Shown: positions 1,939 to 25,597, numbered from the stretch's first letter. The stretch: DNA of 64,000 nucleotides from Candidatus Omnitrophota bacterium (GCA_016190205.1 JACPQZ010000038.1:1-64000), one strand, 5' to 3'. The notes: a model not told the origin generated them from the sequence alone. Numbers and translations are program-made.

Positions 1939-1954
1939 TATGATTTAGATCATA
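1939..1954. promoter_or_regulatory. FNR/Crp-type operator between feoB and porin operon
   Basis: TATGATTTAGATCATA is a perfect inverted repeat (TATGAT-N4-ATCATA) with the TGA-N6-TCA core of Crp/Fnr sites. Its centre (1946.5) is about 41.5 bp upstream of a start predicted from a reverse-strand -10 TATCCT at 1917-1912 in front of feoB. It is about 43 bp upstream of a start predicted from TAAATT at 1978-1983 in front of the porin operon. A single site could therefore serve both directions. Confidence 0.6.
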
Positions 1955-2071
1955 TAAACCCCCAATTCGGCCCTCGCTAAATTGATATTGTATGACGCCG
2001 GTCATTGTGTCCCCTCCCGCCTTTCTTTACTATCGCCATATATAAGAAGCAACATAACCGGAGGATACAGC

Positions 2072-3310
2072 ATGGGGAAGAAAAACAGCGGGGCGAGCTG
2101 GCAACAGATTGCAGGGATCCTTAGTATGGTGGGGGGTATCCTCCTGACCGCACCACCCGCCTGGTCAATCGACAGCGATACACTGCTCAAGCTCCTCATT
2201 CGAAAAGGCCTGATCACCGAAGAGGACATCGCGCAAGTGGAAACGGAATTAGCGCCCAAGCAAACCGAAGGAGTCCAGCCCCCGGCGGCGCTGGAAGAGC
2301 GGCTGACAAAACTCGAGCAGACTGCCGGAGACAAGTCTACGATTCACGTGGGACACGGAACACTCAAGCTCGGCGGGCTTCTCCAGGGCTGGTCGGTATG
2401 GGATGAAAACGACAACGACCGCTTCCGCGTTCGCCGGACCGAGGTCAAGTTTTCCGGCGACATCCTGGGCGATCAAATGTTCAAGTATACGGTCATGATC
2501 GACCCCGTCCAGGTCCAGGAAGACAACACGCGCCGCAGCATTCTCCAAGATGCCCTTTTCACCATTGACCACATGTCTTTCCTCCCCCATCACAAGCTCG
2601 ACCTCGGTCAATACAAGCTGCCTCTTACGGAAGAGGGCCTGCGTTCCTCAGCCAAGCTGGACACTGCGGAACGTTCCTACATCGCGCGCACCTTCGGCGA
2701 TCAGCGGGATATCGGCGCCATGCTGACAGGCGACTGGCCGGGCGTGACCTATCAGGCGGGGGTGTTCAACGGCTCCGGCCAGAACCAGGCAGACGCCAAC
2801 GATCAGAAGGATGTCGCCGGGCGCATCGTGGTGAGACCGCTCAAGGCCCTAAAGCTGGAGGAAGAATATCCCGACATCGGCCAGATCGAACTCGGCCTCT
2901 CCGGATATTACCGGCCGGACCACGGCAGCACACGGGACAAGAAGCGTCTGGGCTATGAGGCCCGCTACGAGTACAAGAACCTGTTTTTGAAGTGGGAATA
3001 CATGTTCGGCCAGGGGACCGCGAGCGCAAACGCGACGTCGGAAAACTCCACCAAGGCGACGGGCTGGTACGCGGAGGCCGGGTACACGCTCTCGCCCTGG
3101 ATCCCGAAGCTCGAGGCGGTCGCCAAGTTTGAGAGCTGGGATCCCAACGAGCTGGTTTCGCTGGACAAAGAGCGCGATCTTACCCTGGGCCTCAACTACT
3201 TCATCAACAAGGAAAACGCCAAGGTCCAGCTCAATTACATCCACAAGGATGAACAGGCTACAGAGATCGACAACGACCAACTCATCGGCGCGCTTCAGTA
3301 TGCGTATTAA
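2072..3310 (+). CDS. Outer-membrane porin, phosphate-selective OprO/OprP type
   Basis: A predicted 412-residue outer-membrane barrel. The ATG at 2072 follows a GGAGG ribosome site and begins a signal peptide ending near PPAWS. A short N-terminal helical segment (LLKLLIRKGLITEEDI) resembles that of other porins of this type, followed by a barrel with many alternating hydrophobic strands and a final LQYAY. The family forms anion-selective channels (phosphate, polyphosphate). It is the first gene of an operon with an Fe-S protein and a molybdopterin oxidoreductase (13 bp to the next gene), so it may admit the anionic substrate of that enzyme. The substrate is inference. An upstream in-frame start at 1982 is unlikely because it precedes the signal peptide. 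Confidence 0.8.
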   Translation: MGKKNSGASWQQIAGILSMVGGILLTAPPAWSIDSDTLLKLLIRKGLITEEDIAQVETELAPKQTEGVQPPAALEERLTKLEQTAGDKSTIHVGHGTLKLGGLLQGWSVWDENDNDRFRVRRTEVKFSGDILGDQMFKYTVMIDPVQVQEDNTRRSILQDALFTIDHMSFLPHHKLDLGQYKLPLTEEGLRSSAKLDTAERSYIARTFGDQRDIGAMLTGDWPGVTYQAGVFNGSGQNQADANDQKDVAGRIVVRPLKALKLEEEYPDIGQIELGLSGYYRPDHGSTRDKKRLGYEARYEYKNLFLKWEYMFGQGTASANATSENSTKATGWYAEAGYTLSPWIPKLEAVAKFESWDPNELVSLDKERDLTLGLNYFINKENAKVQLNYIHKDEQATEIDNDQLIGALQYAY

Positions 3311-3323
3311 CAGGAGGAACGTC

Positions 3324-4151
3324 ATGGCGGCAGAAGCTCTATGCGATCGAGCGGCAGGGTCTCCCGATCCTCAAGTGGAAACGATCGTTGACCGGGCCAT
3401 GGATCGGAAGGTGTTTCTGAAACTCACCGGACTGACCACCCTGGCCCTCTTGACCTTGAGGCCCGGCCAGGTCCTGGCCATGGGCACGGCCCCCCCGGCG
3501 GTGAAAAAGCGCCGCTACGGCATGGCGATCGACCTTAAGCGCTGCGTGGCCTGCCGGGCATGCACCATGGCGTGCAAGCTCGAAAACAAAACCCCACCCG
3601 GCATGTTCTATACGCGGGTCGACGAAGAAGAGCTCGGCGAGTACCCCAACGTCCGGCGGCGGTCCATCCCGACCCCCTGCCTGCACTGCGAAAACCCGCC
3701 CTGTGTACCCGCCTGCCCGATTCAGGCTACCTTTAAGCGAGAGAACGACGGGATCGTGGTGGTCGACTACGAGAAATGCAAAGGTCTTGGCGCCTGCGTC
3801 ACCGCCTGCCCCTACGGAGCCAGGGCACTCGATCTGGGAGATTCCTATCATGAGGGAAAAAGCGAATTCAATAAGATCCCGTCCGATGAATACGGCAAGA
3901 AATGGGTGCGGGAGGATGGCCAGCCGCCGATCGGCAAGGTACGCAAGTGCACCTTTTGTACACACCTGCAAGACGGCCAGGGAAATTATACGGACCTTCC
4001 GGCCTGCGCGAGGACGTGTATGGGCAAGGCGATCCATTTTGGTGACTTGAGCGATCCGGCGAGCGAGGTGAGCCAGCTCTTGGGGCAGCGCCCATGGGTG
4101 CGGCTCAAAGAGGAGCTGGGCACGAGACCATCCGTCTATTATCTGGTGTGA
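3324..4151 (+). CDS. Four-cluster ferredoxin-like electron-transfer subunit (PsrB/TtrB/ArrB type)
   Basis: A 275-residue beta subunit of a molybdopterin oxidoreductase. The ATG at 3324 follows AGGAGG. The N-terminus carries DRKVFLKLTGL, a degenerate Tat signal, suggesting periplasmic location. Four cysteine groups follow: CVACRACTMAC, CLHCENPPCVPAC, CKGLGACVTAC and CTFC...CARTC, as expected for four [4Fe-4S] clusters. It passes electrons between the catalytic subunit encoded next (14 bp away) and a quinone- or cytochrome-linked partner. No NrfD-type membrane anchor is present, as in soluble arsenate reductase ArrAB. The exact substrate class cannot be assigned. Confidence 0.88.
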   Translation: MAAEALCDRAAGSPDPQVETIVDRAMDRKVFLKLTGLTTLALLTLRPGQVLAMGTAPPAVKKRRYGMAIDLKRCVACRACTMACKLENKTPPGMFYTRVDEEELGEYPNVRRRSIPTPCLHCENPPCVPACPIQATFKRENDGIVVVDYEKCKGLGACVTACPYGARALDLGDSYHEGKSEFNKIPSDEYGKKWVREDGQPPIGKVRKCTFCTHLQDGQGNYTDLPACARTCMGKAIHFGDLSDPASEVSQLLGQRPWVRLKEELGTRPSVYYLV

Positions 4152-4165
4152 CGAAGGAGGACCTT

Positions 4166-6613
4166 ATGCAACTGGATCGACGTCAATTTCTGAAACTGAC
4201 GGGGCTGGCGGGGGCAGGCCTTCTGGGGGCTGGCGCCCTTACGCCCGCAAAGGCGCGCCTGGGCAAAGGTGCCGGGCAAGGGCCTTTTGCCGAGGGCGCG
4301 TGGCTCGCCTCCTGCTGCAACATGTGCGGGGGGCAGACGGGAATCATGTGCCAGGTGGTGGATGGCCGGCTGGTGCGGATTAAACCCAACGTGCATAACC
4401 CGAACGGGTTTTCCAATATCTCGGAGGACTTTTTTGCCAACGCGGCCACGGAGGGAGCGGTCATGTGCCCGAAGGGCAATGCCGGCATCATGGCCCTGTA
4501 CGACCCGGACCGTCTAAAAACGCCCTTGCGACGGACTACACCAGAGAAAGGAATTGGCGTTGATCCCGGCTGGAAGGCGATTTCGTGGGAGGAGGCGTAC
4601 GGCGAAATCGTCTCTCGTCTTAAGGCGCTCCGGGAATCGGGCGAGGCGCACAAGCTTTTGTGGTTCTCGGAGGATCACTCGTTCACCCACGTCCAGGCCG
4701 ACTTCTGCAAGCTCTACGGGACTCCGAACTACAACATGCATTCCAACCTTTGCGACGTGGGACGGAAGGCCTCCTTCAAGATCCTTATGGGAGACGAACG
4801 GCCGCTCATAGACGCGATCAATGCCCGGTACATGCTGATCTTCGGCTGGAACCCCCTTTCTGCAACCAAGTGGGCGCACCTGCCGCGAATCGTGACGCGC
4901 GGTATCGAGCAGGGAGCCAAACTGGTCGTCGTGGACCCTCACCTCTCCTATACCGCCTCCAAGGCCCATGAGTGGATTCCCATCCGCCCGGGGACCGACG
5001 GGGCGCTGGCACTGGCACTGGCCCACGTCATCCTGCGCGACGGGCTCTACGACACGGCATTCGTCAATGAATGGGTCACCGGCTTCGAACCCTTCAAGGA
5101 CTACGTAAAGGATAAAACCCCGCAGTGGGCCGGTGAGATCACCACGGTCCCCGCGGAGCGAATTGAGAAACTGGCAAGAGAATTTGCCGGGACCAAACCT
5201 GCCCTGGTCGACGTATGGTCCGGCACCCACCATTCCAACGGGGTCTATGCCGGGTGGGCCATCGGAGCACTCGCGGCGATCACAGGCAATATAGAGAAGC
5301 CCGGGACTCTGGTCATGCCTGAGGCGAAGGGAGGCAAGCACATTGAAGTCGAGGCTGATGAGACCGCGAAGAATACCTTGAAACAGCCTCGCCTGGACGG
5401 CGGCAAAGACAGGTGGCCCTACTTCCACAAATCAGGCGTGTATACAGAAATTATCAACCGGCTGGGCGACGGAAACACCCCCTACCAACCCAAGATGGCC
5501 ATGGTCGTGTTCCAGAACCTTCTCATGTCGGTCATGGGGACGAAGAACGTCGAGAAGGCCCTCAAGACATTGGAGTTCATCGTCGTGGTAGACACCATGA
5601 TGAGCGAGACGGCCGAGTTTGCGGACATCGTCCTCCCGGGCACAACGTACCTGGAGCGCTACGACCTCAACACCCACTGGGTGACGTGGCCGGTCGTGGG
5701 CTTACGGCAGCCGGTCGTTCAACCGCTGTTCGGTCAGCCCGCTGAGAGCGAATTCGTCTGCGAGCTTGGACGCCGGATGGGGCTCAAAGAGGCCAACGGC
5801 AACGATCTCTTCCGGCTTGGGCGAATGTCCGGCCAAAACATCGAGGACAAGTCCCGTTGGTATGAAGAGTGGCTTAGCAAAGAACTGAAAGAGGGCGAGC
5901 CCAAGATGACGCTGGAGGAACTTAAAAACCTGCCGGGCGCTACATGGGTTAGCACGAAGGGAACGCGGTACCACAAGCATCTGGATGTGATCCCGCCGGA
6001 AAAAATGGCTGATTCGATTGTGGAAGGCGGGCTTGTCTTCTCCAAGAAGAAAGACGGCTCCAAGGACAAGCCGCTCGGCATGGTGCGGGCCGATGGCACG
6101 GCGGTGCGAGGTTTTCTGACGCCCTCCGGGAAGGTTGAACTCTACGCCGCAAAACACGAGGGTAAGAAAAATGCGGAAGGTGAGCCGCTTAAGCTGCTTC
6201 CCGAGTATGAGCCCAGGCAATGGCAGCCGAGCGCCGAGTACCCCCTCTACTTGATCAACTGGAAAGAGGCTTCACAGACGCACTCCCGCACACAGAACAA
6301 TGCGTTCCTGGCCGAGCTCAAGGTAACCGACGGATTGCGGATCAACACCAAGACCGCTGCCTCACTGGGAATCCGTTCCGGCGACTGGATCTGGGTTGAA
6401 TCCCCGCATGGCAGGATCAAGATGCGGGCGGAACTTACGGAAGGGATCCATCCGGAGGTGGTCGGTACCCAGCATGGCTGGGGTCACTGGGCAATGGGAC
6501 GGACCGCCAAGGGCCGCGGGGCACATACGGGCTTCCTCGCCCCCACCCAGGCCGATCCCATCTCCGGCCAAGCGCTCAATAAAGAAATCTGCGTCCGGCT
6601 CTCCAAGGCATGA
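4166..6613 (+). CDS. Periplasmic molybdopterin oxidoreductase, catalytic subunit (PsrA/ArrA-like DMSO reductase family)
   Basis: An 815-residue enzyme of the DMSO-reductase superfamily. The ATG at 4166 follows AAGGAGG and starts a clear Tat signal (DRRQFLKLTGL). The N-terminal cluster region reads CCNMCGGQTGIMC and later AVMCPKG. The usual third Cys of C-x2-C-x3-C is Thr, with another Cys four residues on. HSNLCDVGR supplies a probable Cys ligand to Mo, as in PsrA, ArrA and NapA. Both molybdopterin-binding halves are present, ending in a typical C-terminal domain (TQHGWGHW). Its operon partners are a porin, an Fe-S subunit and a chaperone. Substrate could be polysulfide/thiosulfate, arsenate or another oxyanion; sequence alone does not decide. 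Confidence 0.88.
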   Translation: MQLDRRQFLKLTGLAGAGLLGAGALTPAKARLGKGAGQGPFAEGAWLASCCNMCGGQTGIMCQVVDGRLVRIKPNVHNPNGFSNISEDFFANAATEGAVMCPKGNAGIMALYDPDRLKTPLRRTTPEKGIGVDPGWKAISWEEAYGEIVSRLKALRESGEAHKLLWFSEDHSFTHVQADFCKLYGTPNYNMHSNLCDVGRKASFKILMGDERPLIDAINARYMLIFGWNPLSATKWAHLPRIVTRGIEQGAKLVVVDPHLSYTASKAHEWIPIRPGTDGALALALAHVILRDGLYDTAFVNEWVTGFEPFKDYVKDKTPQWAGEITTVPAERIEKLAREFAGTKPALVDVWSGTHHSNGVYAGWAIGALAAITGNIEKPGTLVMPEAKGGKHIEVEADETAKNTLKQPRLDGGKDRWPYFHKSGVYTEIINRLGDGNTPYQPKMAMVVFQNLLMSVMGTKNVEKALKTLEFIVVVDTMMSETAEFADIVLPGTTYLERYDLNTHWVTWPVVGLRQPVVQPLFGQPAESEFVCELGRRMGLKEANGNDLFRLGRMSGQNIEDKSRWYEEWLSKELKEGEPKMTLEELKNLPGATWVSTKGTRYHKHLDVIPPEKMADSIVEGGLVFSKKKDGSKDKPLGMVRADGTAVRGFLTPSGKVELYAAKHEGKKNAEGEPLKLLPEYEPRQWQPSAEYPLYLINWKEASQTHSRTQNNAFLAELKVTDGLRINTKTAASLGIRSGDWIWVESPHGRIKMRAELTEGIHPEVVGTQHGWGHWAMGRTAKGRGAHTGFLAPTQADPISGQALNKEICVRLSKA

Positions 6614-7227
6614 TTCAAACCACTGCCACCCGCCCATCTATCACGGCTGGAAACCTGCCGTCCCGGGCCGCGAGTTACCTCGTGTTTGCTCGGCTAATGC
6701 GGGAAGCGCCGTCCACAGATCTTTTGAAATTCATTACAGGGCAGGAGGTCCTGGAGGCTTCGGAGACAGAGAAGGTTGCCGTTCAATACGCCCGCCTTTT
6801 TCTGGTTCCGGGGGATGAGGCCGTTCGGCCCTACGAATCGGTGTACTGCGATGCATTAACCATCGACACGTCCACAGCCTGTTCGCCCTATTTCCCATCC
6901 AGCTCCCACAAGATCAGCCTGAATGGATACCTGGGTGGGCCCTCCAGCACTGCCGTCCGCGAAGTCTACCGTCAAGCCGGTTTGGACCTGGCGCCCGCCA
7001 GCCATGAACTACCCGACCATCTCGCTATTGAGCTGGAGTTTATGGGACGGCTCTTGGAACGCCGCCAAACAGAGCAGGGCAAGATGTTCTTTCACGACCA
7101 TCTTGCCCGCTGGGTGTATGATTGTTTACACCAGATCAAACAAAAGACTGATTCTGGGTTCTACCAAAGCCTTACCGAAAAGCTTGAGCAGTTTTTACTG
7201 AGCGAGCAAGCCCTCTTCTCTACCTGA
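6610..7227 (+). CDS. TorD/DmsD-family chaperone for molybdoenzyme maturation
   Basis: A 205-residue all-helical cytoplasmic chaperone. Its ATG overlaps the stop of the molybdoenzyme gene (ATGA). The features YARLFLVPG, PYESVY and the conserved ELPDHLAIELEFMG are diagnostic of the TorD family. Such proteins bind the Tat signal and the apo-enzyme until the cofactor is inserted, so this one most likely serves the adjacent molybdopterin oxidoreductase. The last bases overlap the 3' end of the convergent DUF2934 gene by 8 nt. Confidence 0.88.
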   Translation: MIQTTATRPSITAGNLPSRAASYLVFARLMREAPSTDLLKFITGQEVLEASETEKVAVQYARLFLVPGDEAVRPYESVYCDALTIDTSTACSPYFPSSSHKISLNGYLGGPSSTAVREVYRQAGLDLAPASHELPDHLAIELEFMGRLLERRQTEQGKMFFHDHLARWVYDCLHQIKQKTDSGFYQSLTEKLEQFLLSEQALFST

Positions 7228-7420
7228 CCTGTCCCCTCACCAATTCCTGCTCGGCCTCGACCCAATCCTGAAGATGGCTGTTCTGGGGTCTCCCCTTGCG
7301 CTCCCAAATTTGATAGGCCCGTTCCCTGATCCTGGCGATCTTCCAGGCAGGATCTTTGGAAGATACCGGCCGTTCCCTTCTTTTTTCCCTGTTTTCGCTG
7401 TTCCAATCCTGAATACCCAT
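7220..7420 (-). CDS. Small DUF2934 protein
   Basis: A 66-residue highly charged protein with the DUF2934 core IRERAYQIWERKGRP followed by DWVEAEQEL. The function of this family is unknown. The start is well supported: GGAGGTGCGAC lies directly before ATG at 7420. A -10 TATACT (7445-7440) and a palindromic Crp/Fnr-type site (7468-7483) lie upstream, so it is probably transcribed alone, although read-through from the cytochrome operon ending at 7497 is possible. It is convergent with, and overlaps, the TorD-like gene. Confidence 0.78.
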   Translation of the reverse strand: MGIQDWNSENREKRRERPVSSKDPAWKIARIRERAYQIWERKGRPQNSHLQDWVEAEQELVRGQVR

Positions 7421-7467
7421 GTCGCACCTCCGAACCTTCAGTATAGCGCCCCGCGTCCTGTTCTTAC

Positions 7468-7483
7468 CATGATGTAGATCATG
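7468..7483 (-). promoter_or_regulatory. FNR/Crp-type operator upstream of DUF2934 gene
   Basis: CATGATGTAGATCATG is a perfect palindrome (CATGAT-N4-ATCATG). The reverse-strand -10 TATACT at 7445-7440 predicts a start near 7433, putting the site centre (7475.5) at about -42. This is the class II activator position for FNR and CRP. Confidence 0.6.
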
Positions 7484-7496: not shown

Positions 7497-9272
7497 TCAG
7501 GCCCTAACCAGGCCCCTGGCCTTCAGGCCTACAACCGCTATAAAGGCGATCTCGGCCGCAAAATACGCAATGAGTAGCGGCGGCAGAGGCTTGGCATTTC
7601 CGCCCGCATAACTGTGGAGACCCACGAGATAAAAGCTTACCCCGTAATAGGTCATGAGAAGAAAAAAGAAGCCCGCGATAGTTGCGAGGGCAAAGCCCGC
7701 GCCGCGAATCCATCCGGAGAAGCGGCCGTGGAGCATCGCGATGTACCACAAGAGCGTCACGAGCGCCCACGTCTCCTTGGGGTCCCATCCCCAGTAACGC
7801 CCCCAGGAGGCATTGGCCCACACTGCGCCCAGCATGATCCCGGCCGCCAAGAGCACGATACCCACCTGAAGCGACCGGTAAACCCAAGTGTCGAGAGGCC
7901 TCAAGCCCTCATGGCCCCGGCCATGCACCAGATACATCCCCGCATAGATGTGCGCCATGATCACGCCCAGGGCCAAGGCCCCGTAGCTCGCCACGATCGT
8001 AAGGACGTGGACCGTGAGCCACAGGTTACTGCGGAGAACCGCCACCACAGGAGAGATGCTGGGGTCAAGCGGCAGGTGATCCGCCAAGAGGAGAGTCACC
8101 GCGGCCAGGATCGATGCGCACAAACCGAAATAACGCACCCTGTAGATCGCCTCAAAAATGATGGCAAGCAAAACGGCCACAAAGGCAAGCCACAGCATGG
8201 ACTCGTAAAAATTGGAAACGGGGGGACGCCCCCCCACAATGACGCGCGCGGCGATACCACCTACGTGCATGAGAAATGCGAGCCCCATCCCCAAAAAACC
8301 CGCGCCCGCCAGCCACCGCCCTCCCCACACACAGCTCACCCCCAGGGCCACGGCCGCCATGAGATACGCCCACCGAGCCCACCGGAAAGGACTCAAGCTA
8401 TGATATAAAACCTCTAGACTTAAGCGCCAGCCGCTCGGATAGTGCGTTGGGCTGGCCGAGGCGAGCTCGGCCTTTAAGACTCGTGCTGTCAGAACGATCT
8501 CTTCATCCGTCCCGGAGCGAACGCTGTCCACGAAACCCGTCCATGCCGACTTCATGGACTCACCCTTCTTCCACTCATACCCCGCCGGTTCGAGAATGGA
8601 AAGCCAAACGGCCTCCTGGGCGGAGGGCGGCGTAACGAGGTTAAGCTCCTGCTTGGTGAGCTGGTCAAAGGTTACGAAGCGGTTATAGAGGTCCATGGTC
8701 TCGTTTTCAAGCATGGTGAGTTTTTCATTGGCCTGCTGTTTCTCAACGATGGCGGGGAGCATGCGCATAAGCTCCCGCCCGGCCAAGAGCTCTCCAAGCG
8801 AGACATGAGTTTTTTTGGGATCTAAGTTCAAGGCCTCGCGCAAGGGACGAAAGGGGACCGAAAGGATTGCCTCCCCGCTCCAGTAGTCCGGGTCGGCCAT
8901 CATAGAGAGCACGGCTTGAACAGGATCAAGGTGCCCCACCCGCGGGGAGCCGGTTAAAAGCTCCAGGGTCTCGCGGGCAAAACTATCCAAGGGCTTGACG
9001 CGCCCGCTGTGCTGGATGGGGATGGCTCTTAAGCTTTCGAGGGCCGCGGCAGGCAGGGGTTTGTGGTGAGAAGACCAGGCGAAGGAAGCGGCGAGAACGG
9101 TCATTGCGAGAGCGAGTCGGAGAATCGGGACCCTCGTCATTGCGAGCCCCGCATAGCGGGGCGAAGCAATCTCATGAGATCGCCACGGCCGCCTTGGGCG
9201 GCCTCGCGACGCTTCGCGGATTGCTTCGTCGCTCCGCTCCTCGCAATGACAGGCAGAACGTTTGCTATGCAT
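7497..9272 (-). CDS. ccsA: Cytochrome c biogenesis protein CcsA/ResC (System II heme handling), with in-frame repeat insertion
   Basis: Together with ResB it exports heme and ligates it to CXXCH apocytochromes. The C-terminal half has multiple membrane helices and the WWD motif (WGRYWGWDPKETWAL) with flanking histidines. The N-terminal half is a periplasmic domain. The preferred start is ATG 9272: GGGGAG lies 8 nt upstream inside the end of resB, and it overlaps the resB stop. Residues about 8-46 are the translation of an interspersed repeat (9136-9250) that keeps the frame open and precedes the hydrophobic signal (RVPILRLALAMTVLAASF). Alternative starts are ATG 9140, which is itself inside the repeat terminus, or 9110. 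It is the last gene of the electron-transfer operon, which makes about 36 heme c sites that need this system. Confidence 0.88.
   Translation of the reverse strand: MHSKRSACHCEERSDEAIREASRGRPRRPWRSHEIASPRYAGLAMTRVPILRLALAMTVLAASFAWSSHHKPLPAAALESLRAIPIQHSGRVKPLDSFARETLELLTGSPRVGHLDPVQAVLSMMADPDYWSGEAILSVPFRPLREALNLDPKKTHVSLGELLAGRELMRMLPAIVEKQQANEKLTMLENETMDLYNRFVTFDQLTKQELNLVTPPSAQEAVWLSILEPAGYEWKKGESMKSAWTGFVDSVRSGTDEEIVLTARVLKAELASASPTHYPSGWRLSLEVLYHSLSPFRWARWAYLMAAVALGVSCVWGGRWLAGAGFLGMGLAFLMHVGGIAARVIVGGRPPVSNFYESMLWLAFVAVLLAIIFEAIYRVRYFGLCASILAAVTLLLADHLPLDPSISPVVAVLRSNLWLTVHVLTIVASYGALALGVIMAHIYAGMYLVHGRGHEGLRPLDTWVYRSLQVGIVLLAAGIMLGAVWANASWGRYWGWDPKETWALVTLLWYIAMLHGRFSGWIRGAGFALATIAGFFFLLMTYYGVSFYLVGLHSYAGGNAKPLPPLLIAYFAAEIAFIAVVGLKARGLVRA
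9136..9250. repeat. Interspersed repeat with 11-bp inverted termini inside ccsA
   Basis: The 115-bp segment begins GTCATTGCGAG and ends CTCGCAATGAC, an exact inverted pair. Internal matching arms include GCGAAGCAATC and GATTGCTTCG. Its reverse-strand translation contains CHCEERSDEAI and LAMT, phrases typical of a widespread short interspersed bacterial repeat. A further copy of one terminus (GTCATTGCGAG) stands at 9100-9110, suggesting a nested or partly duplicated element. No transposase is encoded. Confidence 0.8.
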
Positions 9273-11007: not shown

Positions 11008-11055
11008 GAAGGGATTCTCGGAAGGTTACCTTATATTATAACTCTTTAGATTCTT

Positions 11056-11250
11056 TTAATCAGCACTTTTCTTAGGTCCCAGCGCGGCCAAGATTTCCCG
11101 GCGCTCCGAATAGCGGTGATTAAGATAGAACGCGGATAGCGCCGTTCCCCCCGTCAGGTAAAATGAGCGCGCAAACGCCTCCTCCTTGAAACACGCGTCC
11201 AACACCGTGCGATGGAGCGGGGTTAAGACTTCCGGCTTTTCGCTGTCCAA
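11056..11250 (-). pseudogene. Truncated AbiEii-type nucleotidyltransferase toxin
   Basis: The 64 residues match only the start of an AbiEii-like toxin: a helical lead then FYLTGGTALSAFYL and HRYSE. Family members continue with a catalytic DLDF-type motif. Here the frame passes into REILAALGPKKSAD and stops, so the catalytic aspartates are missing. An internal deletion joining the 5' end to the extreme 3' end is a reasonable reading. It overlaps the upstream antitoxin-like gene by 28 nt, the usual coupled arrangement. It is unlikely to be an active toxin. Confidence 0.65.
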
Positions 11251-11660: not shown

Positions 11661-11666
11661 ATATAT

Positions 11667-11695
11667 ATTGTATTCGATTCGAATACAAAAGTCAA
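11667..11695 (-). promoter_or_regulatory. Strong promoter with internal palindromic operator for the toxin-antitoxin remnant
   Basis: The reverse strand reads TTGACT (11695-11690), 17 bp spacer, TACAAT (11672-11667). Filling the spacer and overlapping the -10 is the inverted repeat TTGTATTCGA-T-TCGAATACAA at 11668-11688, placed to block polymerase when bound. The predicted start lies at about 11660, the GTG codon of the antitoxin-like gene. Confidence 0.6.
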
Positions 11696-17375: not shown

Positions 17376-17379
17376 CGCG

Positions 17380-17841
17380 TTATCCGGTCTTGGTGACCAC
17401 GACGTCTTCCCCGCGCACATTCACCTCGTAGTTTTCCAGGGGACGCGGGGGCGGGCCGGAAATGACTTGTCCTTTGAGATCGAATCTCCCGTTGTGGCAG
17501 GCGCACCAGATGGAGCGGGAGGCATCGTCGTACTGAACCGTGCAGTTTAAGTGGGTACAGACGGCGGAGTAAGCTTTGAGTTCCCCCTCAAGGGTGTGCA
17601 CCAAAAGCCCCGGCCGGTTCCCGAAGCGGAAGATCTTGGCCGAATTGGGTTTTAAGTCGCCTATCTTGGCCGCGACGACGCTGGATTGTGCGGCCTCAAC
17701 GCCTGGAGGGGGCTTGAGATAACGCAGGATGGGATAGAAGGCGGCGGCCAGAATGGCAAGGAGCGAGCCGTTTAAGGCGGATTGACAGAAAGACCTTCGT
17801 GTGATGAAAAACCCGCGTGCTCCCGGGCGATCTGCCCTCAT
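17380..17841 (-). CDS. Rieske [2Fe-2S] protein
   Basis: The 153-residue subunit has a basic N-terminus with TRRSFCQSAL, a Tat-like signal anchor, and a single hydrophobic helix. The Rieske fold follows, with cluster ligands in CTHLNC and CACHNG and the proline loop GPPPRPLENYEV. It accepts one electron from quinol at the cytochrome b site. It is followed after 4 nt by cytochrome b, and preceded after 28 nt by the outer-membrane barrel gene. Confidence 0.93.
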   Translation of the reverse strand: MRADRPGARGFFITRRSFCQSALNGSLLAILAAAFYPILRYLKPPPGVEAAQSSVVAAKIGDLKPNSAKIFRFGNRPGLLVHTLEGELKAYSAVCTHLNCTVQYDDASRSIWCACHNGRFDLKGQVISGPPPRPLENYEVNVRGEDVVVTKTG

Positions 17842-17869
17842 GTGACTTTACCCCCACCCAGAGATCGTA

Positions 17870-19927
17870 TCAGAAGGTCTTGGAGACCGCAAGTGAGACG
17901 AGATGCGCCTTGTACTTTCCTATTTCAGCCTGCGAGCCGGGCTGGTAGTGGTAATACCCGTACTCGGCCCTGACCGAGGTGTCTTGAGCAAGCTCACAGC
18001 GGAGGCCGCAGGTGAGATCAATTTGACCAAAGTCCGCACCCAGCGGAAGCCCGGTCGACGTAAAATCGTTGAAATTGTCGGCCTCGGAATACTGCGCAGA
18101 GGCGTCGAGCGTAAGATTGGGTCTCATCATATAATCGGCCCCGACAAGCCAGGTATTGACGTCCGCGTTAAACACCGGGACCTGCCCGCTTGCGGCAAGC
18201 CTCGCCGGGGTCACGGTGGCCGCCGTCTGATGCGAGAATGAGCCCATCAGCATGAGCTCCCTAAGCACGTGGATGGTCAGGTCATAAGTATAGGTGTGTG
18301 AGGTAAACTCGCTTTTCCTCCTGGGCTCGCTTTCCGCGCGTGTCAGGTAATCTTTGTCCTGAAGCTGATAACGAAATGAGGTGCGGACCTTGCGGACGGG
18401 ACGAAGGCTCACGCGCGCCATGATCTCATCCGTATCGATACTCATCCCGTCCATAAAGGCTGAACGGGCCGCGGTCGAACCGGGATCGGTCTCAAAGAGA
18501 TCGTCATAGTCCTGGTTGTCCCGGCGGTGCCGGTAGTGGGTGGTGAGATCGACATAATGCACCGGGGTCACCCTGCCTCCCACGGTCACAGTCCCCCGAT
18601 CGGCATCCGTAATCGTGTCGCGCTCGAAGCTGACAGCGCCGGTGGCGTAGCTCACAGACTGCTCTTCCAGCTTGATCCTGGACTGCTCAAGCTCTAGTTC
18701 CGAGTAGAGCGCCGTATAGGGGATCCCGGTGTAATGGATGTTGAGCCCCTCCCCCCACCTCACGGCTGTCGAGTCATTGGTGCTGATTTCGGCCTCTTCA
18801 ACAAATCCGTCAGGCGTGCTGCCGCCCGAACTATTGGGATTACTATCCTCCGGATACCTGGAATTGCTGTCCCGGCTCACCAGTTCTGACTTAAGTTTAA
18901 GTCCCACTGCCACGTCCTCCCACTCATAGAGCACGGCATTTCCCACCCACGTATGGGTAAAATAATCATTATCAGCGGTGGCATCCCGCTTTTGCTTGGG
19001 GTTACTGAAATTGGTGATCACCCCGTTCTCATTCGTTTCAAAGATGTCTTCCAGTTCCGTAAAATTGAGATACGCGAACTGGTAACCCCCCGACGTAAAG
19101 AGTTTCCGGTCCCAAAACCACCTTTCTGCACCTAAGAAAGTTGTGTACAAATCGCTCTCCGGGCTTTGGAGTTGCCGCCGGATCTTTTTGTCGGAAGCTG
19201 TCGTGGTCGTGGAGAGGCTCTTTTCTACGCGGGTCGATTCGGTCCGGACGAATTCCACGTGCTGTTTCCCCGTGAGCCGCGCGCCGCGAAAGTCATCTGC
19301 GACTTCGAGCTCCAGCATATCCACCCGCTCATCAAAGTCCTGCCACGAGGGCCCGATAAAACGCGTGGTGCTCCCTTCCTTCACTCCCGCCCAGGTCAAA
19401 CGGGATTTCGCCCCATCCTTAAACTCACGCTCATACGTAAAGGTGATTTCCGGCACGTCTTCCTTGCGGAGCCCGGTCTTAAAACCGAAGTGGCCGATCT
19501 CAAGTTCAAGATCTTTATCCGCATCCTGGCCGGACAAGGTGCCGAAGCGGTAGTACACGCCTCCGGTATTGTCAAAGTACTTGCTGAACTCATTGTAGTC
19601 AAACGTTAGAAAACCCAGACCTTCTTTTTTTAGCGTAATCTCCCCTCCCAGATCGTTCTGATCTATGAGGGCATGCGCCTCGGAGGAGAGCTGGGTGCCA
19701 TCCGCGAGTCCATAATTAAACTCGAAGTCCTCCACGCCAAACACGTAACGATCGCGCATCCACTGGTGTTCCCGAAACTTAGGCCTGTCTCCATCCACAG
19801 AGATATATCGCAGCGGGAGAACAGAAATCCCAACCTCGGGATCCCCGGCCTGCGCCGGGCCGCCCCATGAGAGCAGAACCCACATCGCTCCGGCCGATAA
19901 TAACCCGATGATCTTGGCGCGCATCAT
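17870..19927 (-). CDS. MtrB/PioB-like outer-membrane beta-barrel
   Basis: A 685-residue protein with a signal peptide ending near GPAQA and many amphipathic strands up to a terminal aromatic signal (LAVSKTF). Length and position directly after an MtrA-like cytochrome gene (14 bp) match MtrB/PioB, the barrel that sheathes a multiheme wire through the outer membrane. The N-terminal CXXC of Shewanella MtrB is absent, as far as I can see. Family assignment rests on size, topology and context rather than a short motif. No extracellular MtrC-like cytochrome is encoded in the window. Confidence 0.7.
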   Translation of the reverse strand: MMRAKIIGLLSAGAMWVLLSWGGPAQAGDPEVGISVLPLRYISVDGDRPKFREHQWMRDRYVFGVEDFEFNYGLADGTQLSSEAHALIDQNDLGGEITLKKEGLGFLTFDYNEFSKYFDNTGGVYYRFGTLSGQDADKDLELEIGHFGFKTGLRKEDVPEITFTYEREFKDGAKSRLTWAGVKEGSTTRFIGPSWQDFDERVDMLELEVADDFRGARLTGKQHVEFVRTESTRVEKSLSTTTTASDKKIRRQLQSPESDLYTTFLGAERWFWDRKLFTSGGYQFAYLNFTELEDIFETNENGVITNFSNPKQKRDATADNDYFTHTWVGNAVLYEWEDVAVGLKLKSELVSRDSNSRYPEDSNPNSSGGSTPDGFVEEAEISTNDSTAVRWGEGLNIHYTGIPYTALYSELELEQSRIKLEEQSVSYATGAVSFERDTITDADRGTVTVGGRVTPVHYVDLTTHYRHRRDNQDYDDLFETDPGSTAARSAFMDGMSIDTDEIMARVSLRPVRKVRTSFRYQLQDKDYLTRAESEPRRKSEFTSHTYTYDLTIHVLRELMLMGSFSHQTAATVTPARLAASGQVPVFNADVNTWLVGADYMMRPNLTLDASAQYSEADNFNDFTSTGLPLGADFGQIDLTCGLRCELAQDTSVRAEYGYYHYQPGSQAEIGKYKAHLVSLAVSKTF

Positions 19928-19941
19928 GCCCCCCTTAGCTT

Positions 19942-20718
19942 TTAATAGCGCAAATGGTCATCAAAATTCGAGCCGTGCGGTGCCGTGTGGCACCCGGCGC
20001 TAAAACATGTCCCTTGCGCAAGATTGGCCGTATGGCTTCTCTTGCCAATGGTCGGAAAATTAACCTGGGTATGGCACCGCAGACACAGGGTGCTGTCACG
20101 CGCGATCAGCATCTTCGCATGCATGGAACCATGCACCTTGTGGCAGGTCGTGCAGCCCTCGCGCAGGGCCTCATGCTCCCACACGAAGGGCCCCCTCTGC
20201 TCCTTATGGCATTTGTAGCAGGCCTCGTTGATGTCCTGAAGGGTCGTGGCTGACCAGGGCCTGACCTCGGTCCCGTGGGGGCTGTGGCAGTCGGCACAGC
20301 TCATCTTGCCCTCTAAGACAGGGTGATGAAAGGAAAGCTTAAATTCCATTTTCTTGTCCAGGTGACATTCAAAACAGGTGCTGGGGTCCTTCCGGGGATT
20401 TACAATCCCTCCCACACCCTTCCCGCCCCCCGCCGCCACGTGGAGGCTCCCCGGGCCATGGCACATCTCGCAACCCTGCCGTTCAAGACCCTCTCCCTTC
20501 ACATTGATACGCGCATGGGTGGAAAGCTTAAATTCCTGGTGCTCCTTGTCGTGACACATGGCACACGTCTCGGTACCAACGAATGTCGCTTCTTCGGACT
20601 CCTCTCCTTGAGGCTCACCCTCATCGGCCCACACCGATGTGGCACCCAATAGACACACGGCAACGAAAGCAATCCCCCATCCCGCCTGTTTCATCAAACC
20701 TCTTCGTGAGCCGCGCAT
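19942..20718 (-). CDS. MtrA/DmsE-like octaheme cytochrome c
   Basis: A 258-residue periplasmic cytochrome with a signal peptide and a ribosome site GGAGG before ATG 20718. There are seven CXXCH sites (CAMCH, CEMCH, CFECH, CADCH, CYKCH, CTTCH, CLRCH) and one CX4CH (CFSAGCH). The spacing and linkers (STHARINVKGEG, CEMCHGPGSLH, SPHG, KVHGSMH) are those of the DmsE/MtrA/PioA family, which normally holds ten hemes. It probably inserts in the adjacent MtrB-like barrel to conduct electrons across the outer membrane. Confidence 0.83.
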   Translation of the reverse strand: MRGSRRGLMKQAGWGIAFVAVCLLGATSVWADEGEPQGEESEEATFVGTETCAMCHDKEHQEFKLSTHARINVKGEGLERQGCEMCHGPGSLHVAAGGGKGVGGIVNPRKDPSTCFECHLDKKMEFKLSFHHPVLEGKMSCADCHSPHGTEVRPWSATTLQDINEACYKCHKEQRGPFVWEHEALREGCTTCHKVHGSMHAKMLIARDSTLCLRCHTQVNFPTIGKRSHTANLAQGTCFSAGCHTAPHGSNFDDHLRY

Positions 20719-20735
20719 ATTTGTGCCTCCTTGGG

Positions 20736-21155
20736 CTATTCAGATTGTGCGGGAGTGCCCGCCGTATCCGTGCCCGCCGCACCACCCGCAGCCGGAGGGG
20801 TCACCCCCTCGGGATGCGACGCGGGATCCGCAAGATCGGTGCCCTGTTCCCATTCCATAAGATTGGCGGCTCCGTCCTGGTCGGCATCTTCCTGATCCAG
20901 GAGGTGGAAGTCCGCCTCCGCCAGGATCTTGGCCGCCCCTCCGGGCTTCGTGGCCTTGAGACTCAACCCATAGACATTGAGGTCATCCGCCTTTCCCATG
21001 GCCCCCTGGTGGCAGACCTTGCAGGAATAGGCCTTCGCGTCCTTCCCCGGATAGGCTTTTTTGAAGGTCATCAGGTTCTGAACCGTCGCCTCTGCGCCCG
21101 GGCAAACGGAAAAAAGAATAAAACTTGAGACGATTAAGAGACCTGCACGGGACAT
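20736..21155 (-). CDS. Small monoheme cytochrome with EF-hand-like calcium motif
   Basis: A 139-residue secreted protein. ATG 21155 follows AAGGAGG and starts a signal peptide (LLIVSSFILFSVCPGAEA). One heme site, CKVCH, occurs in YSCKVCHQGAMGK. Further on, DADQDGAANLMEWEQGTD is a thrombospondin-3/EF-hand-like Ca-binding loop. The tail is rich in Ala, Gly and Pro. It overlaps the end of hemA by 22 nt and precedes the octaheme cytochrome, so a role as electron carrier or assembly factor of the conduit is likely but unproven. Confidence 0.72.
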   Translation of the reverse strand: MSRAGLLIVSSFILFSVCPGAEATVQNLMTFKKAYPGKDAKAYSCKVCHQGAMGKADDLNVYGLSLKATKPGGAAKILAEADFHLLDQEDADQDGAANLMEWEQGTDLADPASHPEGVTPPAAGGAAGTDTAGTPAQSE

Positions 21156-22192
21156 GTGACTTCCTCCTTTAAAGGACCACGGTTTAACCATTCCATAAAA
21201 TGCTCTACCTGATCATGCAAGATAAGTTCACACGCCGGGAGGTGCCTTCCCCGTTCCTTGAGCGCGGCTTGGGACGCGGCGGTAAGATCATCGATATTCT
21301 TAAGGTGCACGCCGCGCACCTCGCCCGCCGCGGGGTCCACGTTGCGGGGGACGGCGAGATCCAATAGATAAACGGGTCTCCCGCTGCGGCGGGTCATGAC
21401 GGCGAGCATGTCCTCGCGGCTTAATACATAATGGGGTGCCTGGGTTGAGAGTACGGCGAGATCCACCTCTTCCAAATATCTCATCCCCTCTTCCCACGAA
21501 GCCCATCCTGCCCGGCAAATCTCCGCCAGGTCCTGGGCCCTGGAGAGGGTGCGATTGACGACCCAGAGCCGGCCCAATCCAGCCTGGGTGAGATTCCGGG
21601 CCGTAGACTCCGAGGCCTTGCCCGCCCCCCAAACGAGCGCGCTTCTACATTCAAGATCCTGTCCCAAGGACTCGCGCGCCCAGCGCACGACCATGGATCC
21701 TATGGAGGTCTGCCCCTTTGCGATATCGGTTCGCGAACGCACGAGGTGCGCGCAGTGAAATGCCTTCTGAAAAAGCCGGTTTAAAATGGAATCCGCGGCC
21801 CCCGCGCTTACGGCCGCGCCATAGGCGTGCTTGACCTGGGCCGTGATCTCGGTTTCTCCCAAAATCATGGAATCCAGACCTGCCGTCACGCGAAAGAGGT
21901 GGTGCGCCGCCTCCCGCCTTTCCATCCAGTACAAGTGTGCCTCGAATTCGGAAGGCTCCAGATGACTTAAGCCCGCTAAAAGCTCCACTCCTTGAGCGCG
22001 CGCTTCGTGGAGATTACCACTTACCGCGTAAAGCTCCGTCCGGTTACAGGTAGACAAAATAACCGCTTCCTGAATGGAAGCGGTTAAGAGTCCTGGGAGG
22101 GCCTTTGGTAAATCCCGTGACGGGATGGAAAGCCGCTCGCGCAGATGGATGGGCGCGGTGCGGTGATTCATTCCTAAGACGGATAGGGACAT
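21134..22192 (-). CDS. hemA: Glutamyl-tRNA reductase, short form lacking C-terminal dimerisation region
   Basis: Makes glutamate-1-semialdehyde from glutamyl-tRNA, the first committed step of heme and siroheme synthesis. The catalytic domain shows STCNRTELY with the nucleophilic Cys, followed by the NADPH domain (VWGAGKASESTARNL). ATG 22192 follows GGGAGGG. At about 352 residues it is shorter than usual (around 420): it ends soon after FMEWLNRGP, where family members continue into a dimerisation domain. It is the first gene of the cytochrome operon, downstream of a palindromic operator, and no other heme-synthesis gene is nearby. It may be a dedicated extra copy. Confidence 0.86.
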   Translation of the reverse strand: MSLSVLGMNHRTAPIHLRERLSIPSRDLPKALPGLLTASIQEAVILSTCNRTELYAVSGNLHEARAQGVELLAGLSHLEPSEFEAHLYWMERREAAHHLFRVTAGLDSMILGETEITAQVKHAYGAAVSAGAADSILNRLFQKAFHCAHLVRSRTDIAKGQTSIGSMVVRWARESLGQDLECRSALVWGAGKASESTARNLTQAGLGRLWVVNRTLSRAQDLAEICRAGWASWEEGMRYLEEVDLAVLSTQAPHYVLSREDMLAVMTRRSGRPVYLLDLAVPRNVDPAAGEVRGVHLKNIDDLTAASQAALKERGRHLPACELILHDQVEHFMEWLNRGPLKEEVTCPVQVS

Positions 22193-22223
22193 GACCCTCC
22201 CAAACAAACGCTGTTTGAGCCCC

Positions 22224-22268
22224 CATGATAAGACAGGTCCGGGGAGACTACTATGATACAGGTCATAG
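22224..22268 (-). promoter_or_regulatory. FNR/Crp-type operator and -10 upstream of hemA/cytochrome operon
   Basis: CTATGATACAGGTCATAG at 22251-22268 is a palindrome with the TGA-N6-TCA core. A reverse-strand -10 TATCAT at 22229-22224 predicts a start near 22217, so the site centre (22259.5) lies near -42, as for class II activation. A second possible -10 (TATACT, 22299-22294) lies upstream; from that promoter the site would repress. Confidence 0.6.
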
Positions 22269-22353: not shown

Positions 22354-23019
22354 TTAATTGCAGTTTCGCAGGATACCCTTAAGCTGCCGGGGGGCTAATA
22401 TCGTAATCCAGCCCCTGCCGGACGAAACCCATCCCTTTTGCTTGAGGTGCGCCAGCGTGCGGATGGAGGTCTCCCAGCGCGTGCCCACCATACGCGCGAG
22501 CTCCTGGTGCGTAATGGGAACGGTCCGGCCGAAGGAATTTCGGAGTTTTAAGAGGACGTGCACGAGCCTCTGCTCCACGCTGGCCTGGGAGAGGCTGATC
22601 ATCTCCGCCATGTGGCGCATGCGGTCGCAGCAGCTTAAGAGGACCCGGGATGCGAACTTGGGGTAGCGGCTTAACAGTTTAAGAAACGCGGCCCTCGGTA
22701 TGCGGAGAAAGCTCGCATCCGTAGCCGCCACGGCGCGTGTGGAGTAGACGCCCCCCCCATCCAGGGCGGAGATCCCGCACAGGGCCTCGTCGGGCGTCAG
22801 GATAAAAATGGTGGCGTACCCCCCGTTTAAGGTGTGTTTAATAAGATACACCCAGCCGCTTTCGATGATCCAGACAAACTCGGCCGGGTCCCCTTCATCG
22901 AAGATGACCTTGCCCTTCTTAAATTTAAGGAATTCCAGCTCCCGGGATAGGCCCCTCCGCGCCGAGCTCGGCATGGAGCAGAAATAGGAGATCCGGTCCA
23001 GGGAATCGAGGGTAATCAT
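22354..23019 (-). CDS. Crp/Fnr-family transcriptional regulator (second of two)
   Basis: A 221-residue regulator with an N-terminal cyclic-nucleotide-binding-like beta roll (KGKVIFDEGDPAEFVWIIESG) and a C-terminal winged helix-turn-helix. The recognition helix TRWETSIRTLAHLKQKGW keeps the Glu and Arg that read the TGA half-site in CRP and FNR. Cysteines occur near the N-terminus (YFCSMP) and at LLSCCDRM. No FNR-type N-terminal Cys cluster is obvious. ATG 23019 is preferred to GTG 23046. It lies 47 bp after the first regulator in the siroheme reductase operon and just upstream of the hemA operator. Confidence 0.86.
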   Translation of the reverse strand: MITLDSLDRISYFCSMPSSARRGLSRELEFLKFKKGKVIFDEGDPAEFVWIIESGWVYLIKHTLNGGYATIFILTPDEALCGISALDGGGVYSTRAVAATDASFLRIPRAAFLKLLSRYPKFASRVLLSCCDRMRHMAEMISLSQASVEQRLVHVLLKLRNSFGRTVPITHQELARMVGTRWETSIRTLAHLKQKGWVSSGRGWITILAPRQLKGILRNCN

Positions 23020-23066
23020 GGCGGTACCAAGATACCCCCTCGGCACGAAGTCTTCTATGATTAAGA

Positions 23067-23738
23067 TCAGGGTTTGGGAGAGTGATTGAGGAAAGCCGCC
23101 AGGCCTTCGGAATTGGTGATCGTGGTCTTGCCGCGTGAAGATTGAATCAAGCCCTGCTGCTTGAAACGGCTCAAGATCCGGATGGCCGTCTCATGGGTGG
23201 TGCCGGCGATCTCGGCAAACTCCTGGCGGGTCAACGGGATGGTACCTGAAAATTTCTTGCCCAATACGAGCAGGGTATGGGCGAGCCTAAGTTCCGCCGG
23301 TTCGTACAGCCGGCAGCCGGCCCGTTCCACGATCCTCAAGCGCTCGCAGAAAAGGCACATGACGTCTTGCGTGAAATCAAAAGACCGCCTCATGATGCCG
23401 TGCATGGCCTGAATGGGAATGCGCATGACGGTCGTGGGCTCCGCCGCCACGGCATCCGCAGGGTAGGGCTTGCGGTCTAAGGAAGGAAGACAGCAAAACA
23501 CCTCGCCGCGGGTCATGACACAAGTCGTACTCACCTTGCCGTCGGCCAGGACTTTTAAAAGATGCACGCGCCCGCTCTTGACGAGCCAAACGGCATCGGA
23601 GGGCTGGCCCTCATAAAAGATGACCTCTCCTTTGGCAAAATGCTTTTCGGACGAGGCCTCCGCCAGACGGTGCTGGTCTTCCCGGCTTAAACGGCGGAAG
23701 GGATCTGTCTTTTGAAGGAGCGCGCCATTTTCGGTCAT
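23067..23738 (-). CDS. Crp/Fnr-family transcriptional regulator (first of two), cysteine-rich
   Basis: The 223-residue regulator starts at ATG 23738, overlapping the siroheme reductase stop (ATGA). The beta-roll sensor domain (FAKGEVIFYEGQPSDAVWLV) is followed by a helix-turn-helix with recognition helix TTHETAIRILSRFKQQGL; Glu and Arg are spaced to contact TGA. Cysteines are numerous: TTCVM, VFCCLP, MCLFCERL and AGCRL, possible ligands for an Fe-S cluster or heme, or redox thiols. Likely signals are O2, NO or redox state. It is a good candidate for the protein that binds the four TGAT-N4-RTCA palindromes. Confidence 0.87.
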   Translation of the reverse strand: MTENGALLQKTDPFRRLSREDQHRLAEASSEKHFAKGEVIFYEGQPSDAVWLVKSGRVHLLKVLADGKVSTTCVMTRGEVFCCLPSLDRKPYPADAVAAEPTTVMRIPIQAMHGIMRRSFDFTQDVMCLFCERLRIVERAGCRLYEPAELRLAHTLLVLGKKFSGTIPLTRQEFAEIAGTTHETAIRILSRFKQQGLIQSSRGKTTITNSEGLAAFLNHSPKP

Positions 23739-25525
23739 ACCGCGCACTCTCCCTGACCCACGGTGAGCTTAAATTCCTCTTTTTGATCCCAGTCCACGTA
23801 CACGCCGCGGTTCGTGTCGTACTCCTCAACTTGGGCGAGGTCCTTCAAGGCCTCACGCGCGGCCTCGCGGTCGAGGCGTCTTAAGTACGCTGCGATCGAT
23901 TCACCCGGGGCGCGTTCCTTGCGATAGAGCGCAATAATACGCTCAACCGCCTCGGGCACCTTTTTGGTAGGGAGCTTCATGATGGCGCGTCCTATCTGGC
24001 AGACTTCCTGGTCCATGCCGCCCCCGAAGAACATCTGCACATGGGGAACCTCACGGCCGTTACGAGTTCCCACCGCCCCGTGAAAGCCTAAGGCCGCGAC
24101 GTGGTGCTGGCCGCAGGAATTGGGGCAGCCGCTGATTTTGATGGTCAAGTCCTTGACGTCCTCGTACTTCCCATTGCCCTGGGCAAACATCTCGTTCAAG
24201 GCCCGCGCAAGTCCTTTCGAGGACGTGATCCCGAGATTACAGGTATCCGCCCCGGGGCAGGCCAGGACATCGTAGACCTGTCCTGCCCCCGCCTTGGGAA
24301 AACCCAATTTTTGAAGCTCCACATAAAGAGCCAGGACATGTTCGTCACGGACCCAGCGGATGAGCACGTTCTGGGTAATGGAAAGCCGCACCTTGCCGTC
24401 GGCAAAACGGGTTGATAGTTCAGCCATGCCCCTCATCTGGGCGGGGGTCATATCCCCAATAGGAATGAGGACCTCGACCGTGGAGTAACCCTTGTGCTTC
24501 TGGGGGAAGACGTTGGCCGCCTTCCAATGATTGAACTCGGGGCTCGTGAGCATCACCTTTGGCGGCGGGTTTTTAGGAGAGGGGGGAGGGGCCTCCTCCC
24601 ACTTGGCTTTATATTCCTCGATATCCGGGTACCTGACGCCCTGGGCCTTCAAGGCTTCGGCCTCTTGCAAAACGCGCTTTTTAAATTCTTCAAAACCAAT
24701 TTTTCTTACCAGAAACTTCATACGGGCTTGGTTTTTGTTGACGCGGTCTCCGCATCGGTCTTGAATCCTGACGATCGCGTGCATGAGCCGGAGAAAATCC
24801 TTTTCCTGGACAAAGTCGGACAGGAGCTGGCCCACCATCGGGGCTGCCCCCAAGCCCCCGCCCGCATACATCTTAAATCCGCACACGGGTTTTCCGTTTA
24901 CAGCCTTTATCTTGGGGACCAGGCCAATTTCGTTAAACGTCACCTGCCCCTCATTCTTATGCGAGGAGGCGAAATTGATCTTAAACTTGCGCGGGAGCTT
25001 CTGGCTGTCGGGGTGCCTTAAGAAATACGCGGAGGTCATGCGCGCATAGGGGGTGACGTCAAAAGGCTCTTCTGAACTCACCCCCGCCATGGGATCGGCC
25101 ACCACGTTTCGGATGGAGTTGCCGCAGGCCTCCCGCGTTGTCAGGCCCGCCTCGTACAGAAGGCGCAATACGGTGGGCGTATCCGGGGTCTGGACGAAGT
25201 GTATCTGGATGTCCTGCCGGGTCGTGATGTGGCCCAGTTTGTGCGCGGTGTAGTTATCGATAATATCGGCGATACGCACGAGCTGATCGCGGGTTAAGAT
25301 CCCCGAGGGGATCTTGATCCGGATCATGTGGTTCGTGCCGCCCTGCCTCTGGCCGTAGACCCCCCTCATCAGGCGAAAGGGCCTGAACGTATCGTCAAAA
25401 ATCTCCCGCCTCAAGTAGCGGCTGACCATCTCGCTAAAATCAGAAAGATCCTTCTCAACTTCCACTGGAAGGGGTATCCCGGAAGGTTTGAGGGCCCGCG
25501 AGGTTAGTGCGCTGTTCGTTTCCAT
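23735..25525 (-). CDS. Siroheme [4Fe-4S] nitrite/sulfite reductase (NirA/Sir type)
   Basis: A 596-residue cytoplasmic enzyme reducing nitrite to ammonia or sulfite to sulfide with six electrons. Both halves of the pseudo-dimeric fold are present. The N-terminal half has GQRQGGTNHMIRIKIPSG and TTRQDIQIHF. The C-terminal half has cluster/siroheme ligands CPGADTC and CPNSCG. A C-terminal tail of about 60 residues ends near GQGECAV. The ferredoxin-dependent nitrite and sulfite forms are hard to tell apart by eye. It is followed by two Crp/Fnr genes in one operon and preceded by a palindromic operator, suggesting nitrogen- or sulfur-oxyanion-linked anaerobic control. Confidence 0.88.
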   Translation of the reverse strand: METNSALTSRALKPSGIPLPVEVEKDLSDFSEMVSRYLRREIFDDTFRPFRLMRGVYGQRQGGTNHMIRIKIPSGILTRDQLVRIADIIDNYTAHKLGHITTRQDIQIHFVQTPDTPTVLRLLYEAGLTTREACGNSIRNVVADPMAGVSSEEPFDVTPYARMTSAYFLRHPDSQKLPRKFKINFASSHKNEGQVTFNEIGLVPKIKAVNGKPVCGFKMYAGGGLGAAPMVGQLLSDFVQEKDFLRLMHAIVRIQDRCGDRVNKNQARMKFLVRKIGFEEFKKRVLQEAEALKAQGVRYPDIEEYKAKWEEAPPPSPKNPPPKVMLTSPEFNHWKAANVFPQKHKGYSTVEVLIPIGDMTPAQMRGMAELSTRFADGKVRLSITQNVLIRWVRDEHVLALYVELQKLGFPKAGAGQVYDVLACPGADTCNLGITSSKGLARALNEMFAQGNGKYEDVKDLTIKISGCPNSCGQHHVAALGFHGAVGTRNGREVPHVQMFFGGGMDQEVCQIGRAIMKLPTKKVPEAVERIIALYRKERAPGESIAAYLRRLDREAAREALKDLAQVEEYDTNRGVYVDWDQKEEFKLTVGQGECAV

Positions 25526-25554
25526 AACTAGTTCCTTTTAAAGGGCTTATAGAT

Positions 25555-25597
25555 TTAATAAGGCGGGGTGCGTCACTGCTCGGTGATGTACGTCACC
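25555..25597 (-). promoter_or_regulatory. FNR/Crp-type operator and -10 upstream of siroheme reductase operon
   Basis: GGTGATGTACGTCACC at 25582-25597 is a perfect palindrome with TGA-N6-TCA core. A reverse-strand -10 TATTAA at 25560-25555 predicts a start near 25548. The distance from site centre (25589.5) to that start is about 41.5, the class II activator geometry. The outer bases differ (GG/CC in place of TA/CA) from the other three sites. Confidence 0.6.

Follow-up and report, generated by a model that had tools for sequence, protein, structure and literature searches.

A putative Crp/Fnr operator shared by six promoters of an iron, heme and cytochrome gene block in an uncultured bacterial lineage

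Which protein reads the palindromes that stand before the iron, heme and cytochrome genes of this locus, and what does it do there? A first-pass annotation of the window (the whole stretch of 64,000 nucleotides that was analysed) had listed four TGAT-N4-RTCA palindromes, and all of them are present: TATGATTTAGATCATA at 1939–1954, CATGATGTAGATCATG at 7468–7483, CTATGATACAGGTCATAG at 22251–22268 and GGTGATGTACGTCACC at 25582–25597. Read in the direction of the genes, these sites are TGATCTAAATCATAG for feoB, TGATCTACATCATGG for the DUF2934 gene, TGACCTGTATCATAG for the hemA operon and TGACGTACATCACCG for nirA-crp2-crp1. While the four sites are real, the set was incomplete, and a scan for the 12-mer together with a -10 box added TGATCTTAATCATAGA at 23058–23069 (crp1) and TGACGCCGGTCATTG at 1993–2004 (porin). 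Six promoters within a 25-kb iron/heme/cytochrome block thus have a common docking sequence and a common distance to the predicted start. They are given below with their -10 boxes (from a pattern scan), the gap between 12-mer and box, and the score against a matrix built from the sites of relatives only.

1912..1917, minus strand: -10 box TATCCT of feoB
1941..1952, minus strand: operator 1, TGATCTAAATCA, within TATGAT..ATCATAG; feoB; -10 box at 23 nt; matrix score 31.1 (the highest)
1993..2004, plus strand: operator 2, TGACGCCGGTCA; porin-molybdoenzyme operon; -10 box at 23 nt; matrix score 19.3
2028..2033, plus strand: -10 box TACTAT of the porin operon
7440..7445, minus strand: -10 box TATACT of the DUF2934 gene
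7470..7481, minus strand: operator 3, TGATCTACATCA; DUF2934 gene; -10 box at 24 nt; matrix score 26.5
22225..22230, minus strand: -10 box TATCAT of hemA
22254..22265, minus strand: operator 4, TGACCTGTATCA, within CTATGAC..ATCATAG; hemA-cytochrome operon; -10 box at 23 nt; matrix score 29.1
23029..23034, minus strand: -10 box TATCTT of crp1
23058..23069, minus strand: operator 5, TGATCTTAATCA; crp1; -10 box at 23 nt; matrix score 22.8
25555..25560, minus strand: -10 box TATTAA of nirA
25584..25595, minus strand: operator 6, TGACGTACATCA; nirA-crp2-crp1; -10 box at 23 nt; matrix score below 7.0

The gap of 23 or 24 nt, found in six cases out of six, places the centre of the palindrome at -41.5 or -42.5 by the inferred -10 boxes, in agreement with the 41.5–43.5 bp estimated earlier. 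The half-sites TATGAY and RTCATAGA would accordingly be centred 41.5–42.5 bp before the start. Site 1 had been assigned jointly to feoB and the porin operon. This holds for feoB, as the box TATCCT at 23 nt sits on the feoB side, but not for the porin, where the nearest box is TAAATT at 25 nt; site 1 was consequently rejected as porin operator, that operon being served by its own site at 1993–2004. Operator 5 overlaps the stop codon of crp2, and in other genomes, too, a site occupies the equivalent place before crp1. Operator 6 is the weakest of the six, with TATTAA as its -10 box and a C at a position that is always T in relatives; the nirA genes of those relatives have good sites in front.

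The genes that follow these promoters, apart from the regulators, are:

1..1885, minus strand: feoB, incomplete at the contig end, with the ATG at 1885 as likely start
2072..7227, plus strand: porin, FeS subunit, PhsA/ArrA-like molybdoenzyme and TorD-like chaperone
7220..7420, minus strand: DUF2934 small protein
7497..22192, minus strand: hemA, multiheme cytochromes, outer-membrane barrel, Rieske protein, cytochrome b, NapC-like protein, ResB and CcsB, presumed to form a long operon
23735..25525, minus strand: nirA-like siroheme nitrite/sulfite reductase, at the head of the regulator operon

The feoB frame is open upstream, across operators 1 and 2, as far as an ATG at 2005, so that the annotation may overextend the gene at its 5' end; translation more likely begins at the ATG at 1885 than at that at 2005. 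The extent of the presumed single operon at 7497–22192 was deduced from gene order, and its products could form an electron conduit. The front half of this hemA-cytochrome block is conserved beside crp2 in two other genomes, G145 and G279 (49–77%).

It might be argued that the palindromes are chance matches to TGAT-N4-RTCA that happen to fall between genes, and for the bare 12-mer there is something to be said for this. Although the window has 5 copies of TGATN4ATCA where shuffles predict 0.63, and 13 strand-matches to TGATN4RTCA against 2.5 predicted, the 1.65-Mb genome contains 33 copies of TGATN4ATCA and 59 of TGATN4GTCA, and nearly all of those examined outside the window are intragenic. 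The bare 12-mer was therefore dropped as a regulon marker. The composite of operator and promoter, TGAYN4RTCA-N22-24-TANNNT, occurs only 9 times in the genome (a backwards control gave 1). Five of these matches lie in the window and are all promoters, the remaining four being intragenic, and the probability of finding 5 of 9 within 3.9% of the genome is about 1e-5. The nirA site is not among the five because its box TATTAA falls outside the pattern TANNNT. Relative to gene starts across the genome, the bare motif is thus scattered mostly as chance would have it, while the window's composites are not. Given these counts, the fixed spacing of 23 nt, and the conserved flanks and the link to crp2 that relatives display (see below), we regard a chance origin as extremely improbable. 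These genome-wide figures refer to a genome that is 92.8% complete, with gene starts and operons predicted by a simple script. Several candidates for further sites were rejected: one on contig C31 (position 11905) runs into the start codon of a purH-like gene, those on C8, C29 and other contigs are intragenic, and one on C62 (position 6763) is intergenic but has no downstream gene on its contig.

As the composite pattern was partly shaped by the window's own sites, tests in relatives carry more weight. In the loci around crp2 in related genomes the composite recurs between genes, and 29 promoters from 13 of these genomes yield the consensus TA-TGAY-N4-RTCAT-AGA. Base +12, which was not a selection criterion, is T in 29 of 29 sites, where FNR sites have A; in the flank, +13 is A in 25, +14 is G in 22 and +15 is A in 22 of the 29. 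When 33 sites were picked by TGAYN4RTCATAG alone, without regard to a -10 box, in 16 loci fetched for crp2, TANNNT stood at exactly 23 nt in 20 of them and no other spacing was found more than twice. Variants with a spacer of N3 or N5, as well as a scrambled motif, were absent from the crp2 loci. With the matrix built from relatives only, the five best-scoring sites in the window are those before feoB, hemA, the DUF2934 gene, crp1 and the porin gene (31.1–19.3); simulated sequence scores 13.7 at most.

In 6 of 43 class II sites of relatives (loci L214, L216, L219, L220, L222 and L249) an ATG that opens a long frame occurs exactly 6 nt past the -10 box, and these genes are probably leaderless; for crp1 of the window a leader of about 3 nt is predicted. 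If such genes are leaderless (compare PMC3160421), their starts lie where the class II model puts them. The predicted -10 boxes and the positions of these ATGs both point to the centre at -41.5 that is typical of class II sites.

Candidates for the reader are two adjacent genes of the last operon:

22354..23019, minus strand: crp1, tandem Crp/Fnr paralog that probably forms a second tier
23067..23738, minus strand: crp2, encoding the Crp/Fnr protein that probably reads the sites, with a cNMP_binding domain followed by HTH_Crp_2

These are the only two full Crp/Fnr proteins found in the genome (92.8% complete), and both are encoded in the cluster. They share 33–37% identity with each other and score above the Pfam thresholds of PF00027 and PF13545; all NCBIfam equivalogs score far under their cut-offs. 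The recognition helices read TTHETAIR in Crp2 and TRWETSIR in Crp1, so that both proteins have, as previously annotated, the Glu and Arg residues for recognition of TGA (ETAIR, ETSIR), and these residues are kept in relatives.

A survey of 384 genomes of the phylum yielded 17 further genomes with a crp2 ortholog (49–63% identity), in which a crp1-like gene often lies nearby. Of the 18 crp2-positive genomes, 17 contain the extended composite, compared with 28 of 366 others (Fisher P 1e-16), and at least two copies are present in 14 of 18 vs none of 366 (Fisher P 2e-22); these P values ignore kinship, and since the genomes are related the counts are not independent events. The extended composite was not found in G125 and G390, which have crp2, and the incompleteness of draft genomes makes presence and absence less certain in such comparisons. 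In one family with newly sampled genomes, 7 of 8 crp2-positive members carry 2–4 sites, and three members in which crp2 was not detected have at most one site each, perhaps owing to incomplete genomes. The predicted pairing of operator and regulator is thus conserved over several families of the phylum: the proposal of a local regulon with class II spacing is supported but was drawn too narrowly. Two of the loci examined, L217 (G270) and L218 (G112), are identical in sequence, though reversed, and come from genomes placed in separate families (f43 and f25); one of the two was probably binned wrongly. These two genomes should be counted once among the 18, which leaves the result unchanged.

Either protein might be the main reader. 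In favour of Crp1 as principal regulator, or of a mixed Crp1-Crp2 dimer as the only form that binds, its recognition helix shares Glu, Ile and Arg with that of Crp2, and its gene is often near crp2. In six site-bearing genomes, however, crp2 is present and a crp1-like protein was not detected at E 1e-15, which makes Crp2 the better candidate and the alternative unlikely. We consider it highly probable, from sequence comparison, that the palindromes serve Crp2 as operators, and probably Crp1 as well, and propose class II activation. A Crp2 dimer on the site would occupy the -35 position and activate RNA polymerase much as FNR does at its class II promoters.

Sequence does not reveal the direction of control, and Crp/Fnr proteins can repress. 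The same operators of Crp1 and Crp2 could in principle serve repression, which would tolerate many positions; the strictly fixed -41.5 suits activation, and we judge repression to be improbable.

The class II layout, the anaerobic-respiration targets and the Glu and Arg of the recognition helix would also suit a strict oxygen-sensing FNR, with an Fe-S cluster held by N-terminal cysteines and the operator TTGAT-N4-ATCAA. The N-terminal cysteine cluster for [4Fe-4S] is absent, however, from Crp1, Crp2 and their relatives. Both proteins have Ile in place of the Ser of the FNR pattern E..SR, at a helix position occupied by Ser in FNR and by Gly in CRP. On the operator side, the outer base is T, not A, in all 29 sites of relatives, canonical TTGATN4ATCAA is missing from 260 kb around crp2, and the looser TTGAYN4RTCAA has only 4 strand-matches there. 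Nor does the genome, at 92.8% completeness, contain a third full Crp/Fnr gene that might fill this role. A strict FNR is thus very improbable as the reader, and the earlier label "FNR-type" does not apply in its strict sense; the observation that the operator differs from the canonical one proved correct. Taken together, the class II layout and the absence of FNR cysteines and operators indicate FNR-like control, yet no FNR: the system as predicted behaves as a set of class II FNR promoters would, and its proteins belong to the Crp/Fnr superfamily but are not FNR.

Compared with known systems, the sites resemble FNR/DNR class II promoters (TTGAT-N4-ATCAA) in the 12-bp core TGAY-N4-RTCA, the centre at -41.5 and the targets in anaerobic respiration and heme synthesis, but differ in the outer base (RTCAT, not RTCAA) and in the AGA extension. 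The half-site is ATGAY/RTCAT, unlike the TTGAY half-sites of HcpR, DNR and NnrR. In our partial coverage of the literature, the nearest published operator found is that of HcpR of deltaproteobacteria, wyTTGACnnnnGTCAArw, with hemerythrin and cytochrome targets (PMC1274295). HcpR is likewise a Crp/Fnr member with a TGAC-N4-GTCA core and hemerythrin-like, cytochrome-like and nitrite reductase targets, but the outer operator base and the flank differ, and hcp/frdX was not seen among the targets examined here; this separation is based on operator and targets. The same study ties helix residues 180 and 181 of CRP to bases G3 and A6 (PMC1274295), and the equivalent of residue 181 is here Glu, as expected for TGA. 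E. coli CRP (TGTGA-N6-TCACA) is similar in domain layout and in the equivalents of Glu181 and Arg185, but differs in spacer and outer bases and in having Arg180, which has no equivalent here; its operator is absent from the loci of relatives that were examined. Herbaspirillum seropedicae, with three Fnr orthologs in a multi-Fnr network (PMC5934665), also employs more than one Crp/Fnr protein in a respiratory network, but here there are two genes in tandem, of which the second is preceded by a site of its own. In the literature covered, which was partial, we found no prior description of TATGAY-N4-RTCATAGA and nothing directly relevant on Ser212 of FNR.

What Crp2 might sense is suggested by its targets and its own cysteines. 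Cys73, Cys82, Cys83 and Cys142 as well as His59 are invariant in 17 Crp2 sequences, with Cys131 in 16 and Cys128 in 13 of the 17; an AlphaFold model of Crp2 from a two-row alignment (pLDDT 57.6) was too poor for placing the cysteines. Our guess, from the sequences, is that Crp2 may respond through this set of cysteines to redox state, oxygen or nitric oxide, and iron uptake, heme and cytochrome synthesis and the anaerobic reductases might thereby be induced together. As a site precedes crp1 here and in five other genomes (G295, G381, G379, G316 and G291), crp1 would form a second tier, switched on by Crp2. A more far-reaching and rather doubtful idea is that Crp2 represents the type of a separate Crp/Fnr subfamily, which would combine the distinct operator TATGAY-N4-RTCATAGA, read by means of Ile in place of Ser/Gly, a non-FNR set of cysteines (73, 82, 83, 142 and mostly 128 and 131) as sensor, perhaps through a thiol switch or an Fe-S cluster ligated in another way, and a two-tier cascade from Crp2 to Crp1.

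Besides crp1, the genes preceded by sites in relatives include feoB, nirA, resB, an FeS subunit, radical SAM proteins, a MobA-like protein, a COX2-type protein, PEP carboxykinase and, in several genomes, hemerythrin-like proteins. The analysis thus supplies a predicted operator, promoter layout, regulator and target list for respiration genes in an uncultured lineage of bacteria, and with operator and layout defined, targets in other genomes of the phylum become predictable from sequence. The system provides a clean case of operator change within Crp/Fnr proteins, and Crp2 is a candidate redox or gas sensor of a new type. The scheme as a whole is the known one of class II Crp/Fnr control, with a changed operator and perhaps a novel sensor.

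Palindromes of another kind are found at 25633–25673, where two 20-bp copies of CAGACAC-N6-GTGTCTG, mutual reverse complements, stand back to back. There are 28 such CAGACAC/GTGTCTG palindromes in the genome, several of them in pairs and always with 6 central bases when 4–16 were allowed, and a backwards control found none; they look like dispersed REP/BIME-like elements.
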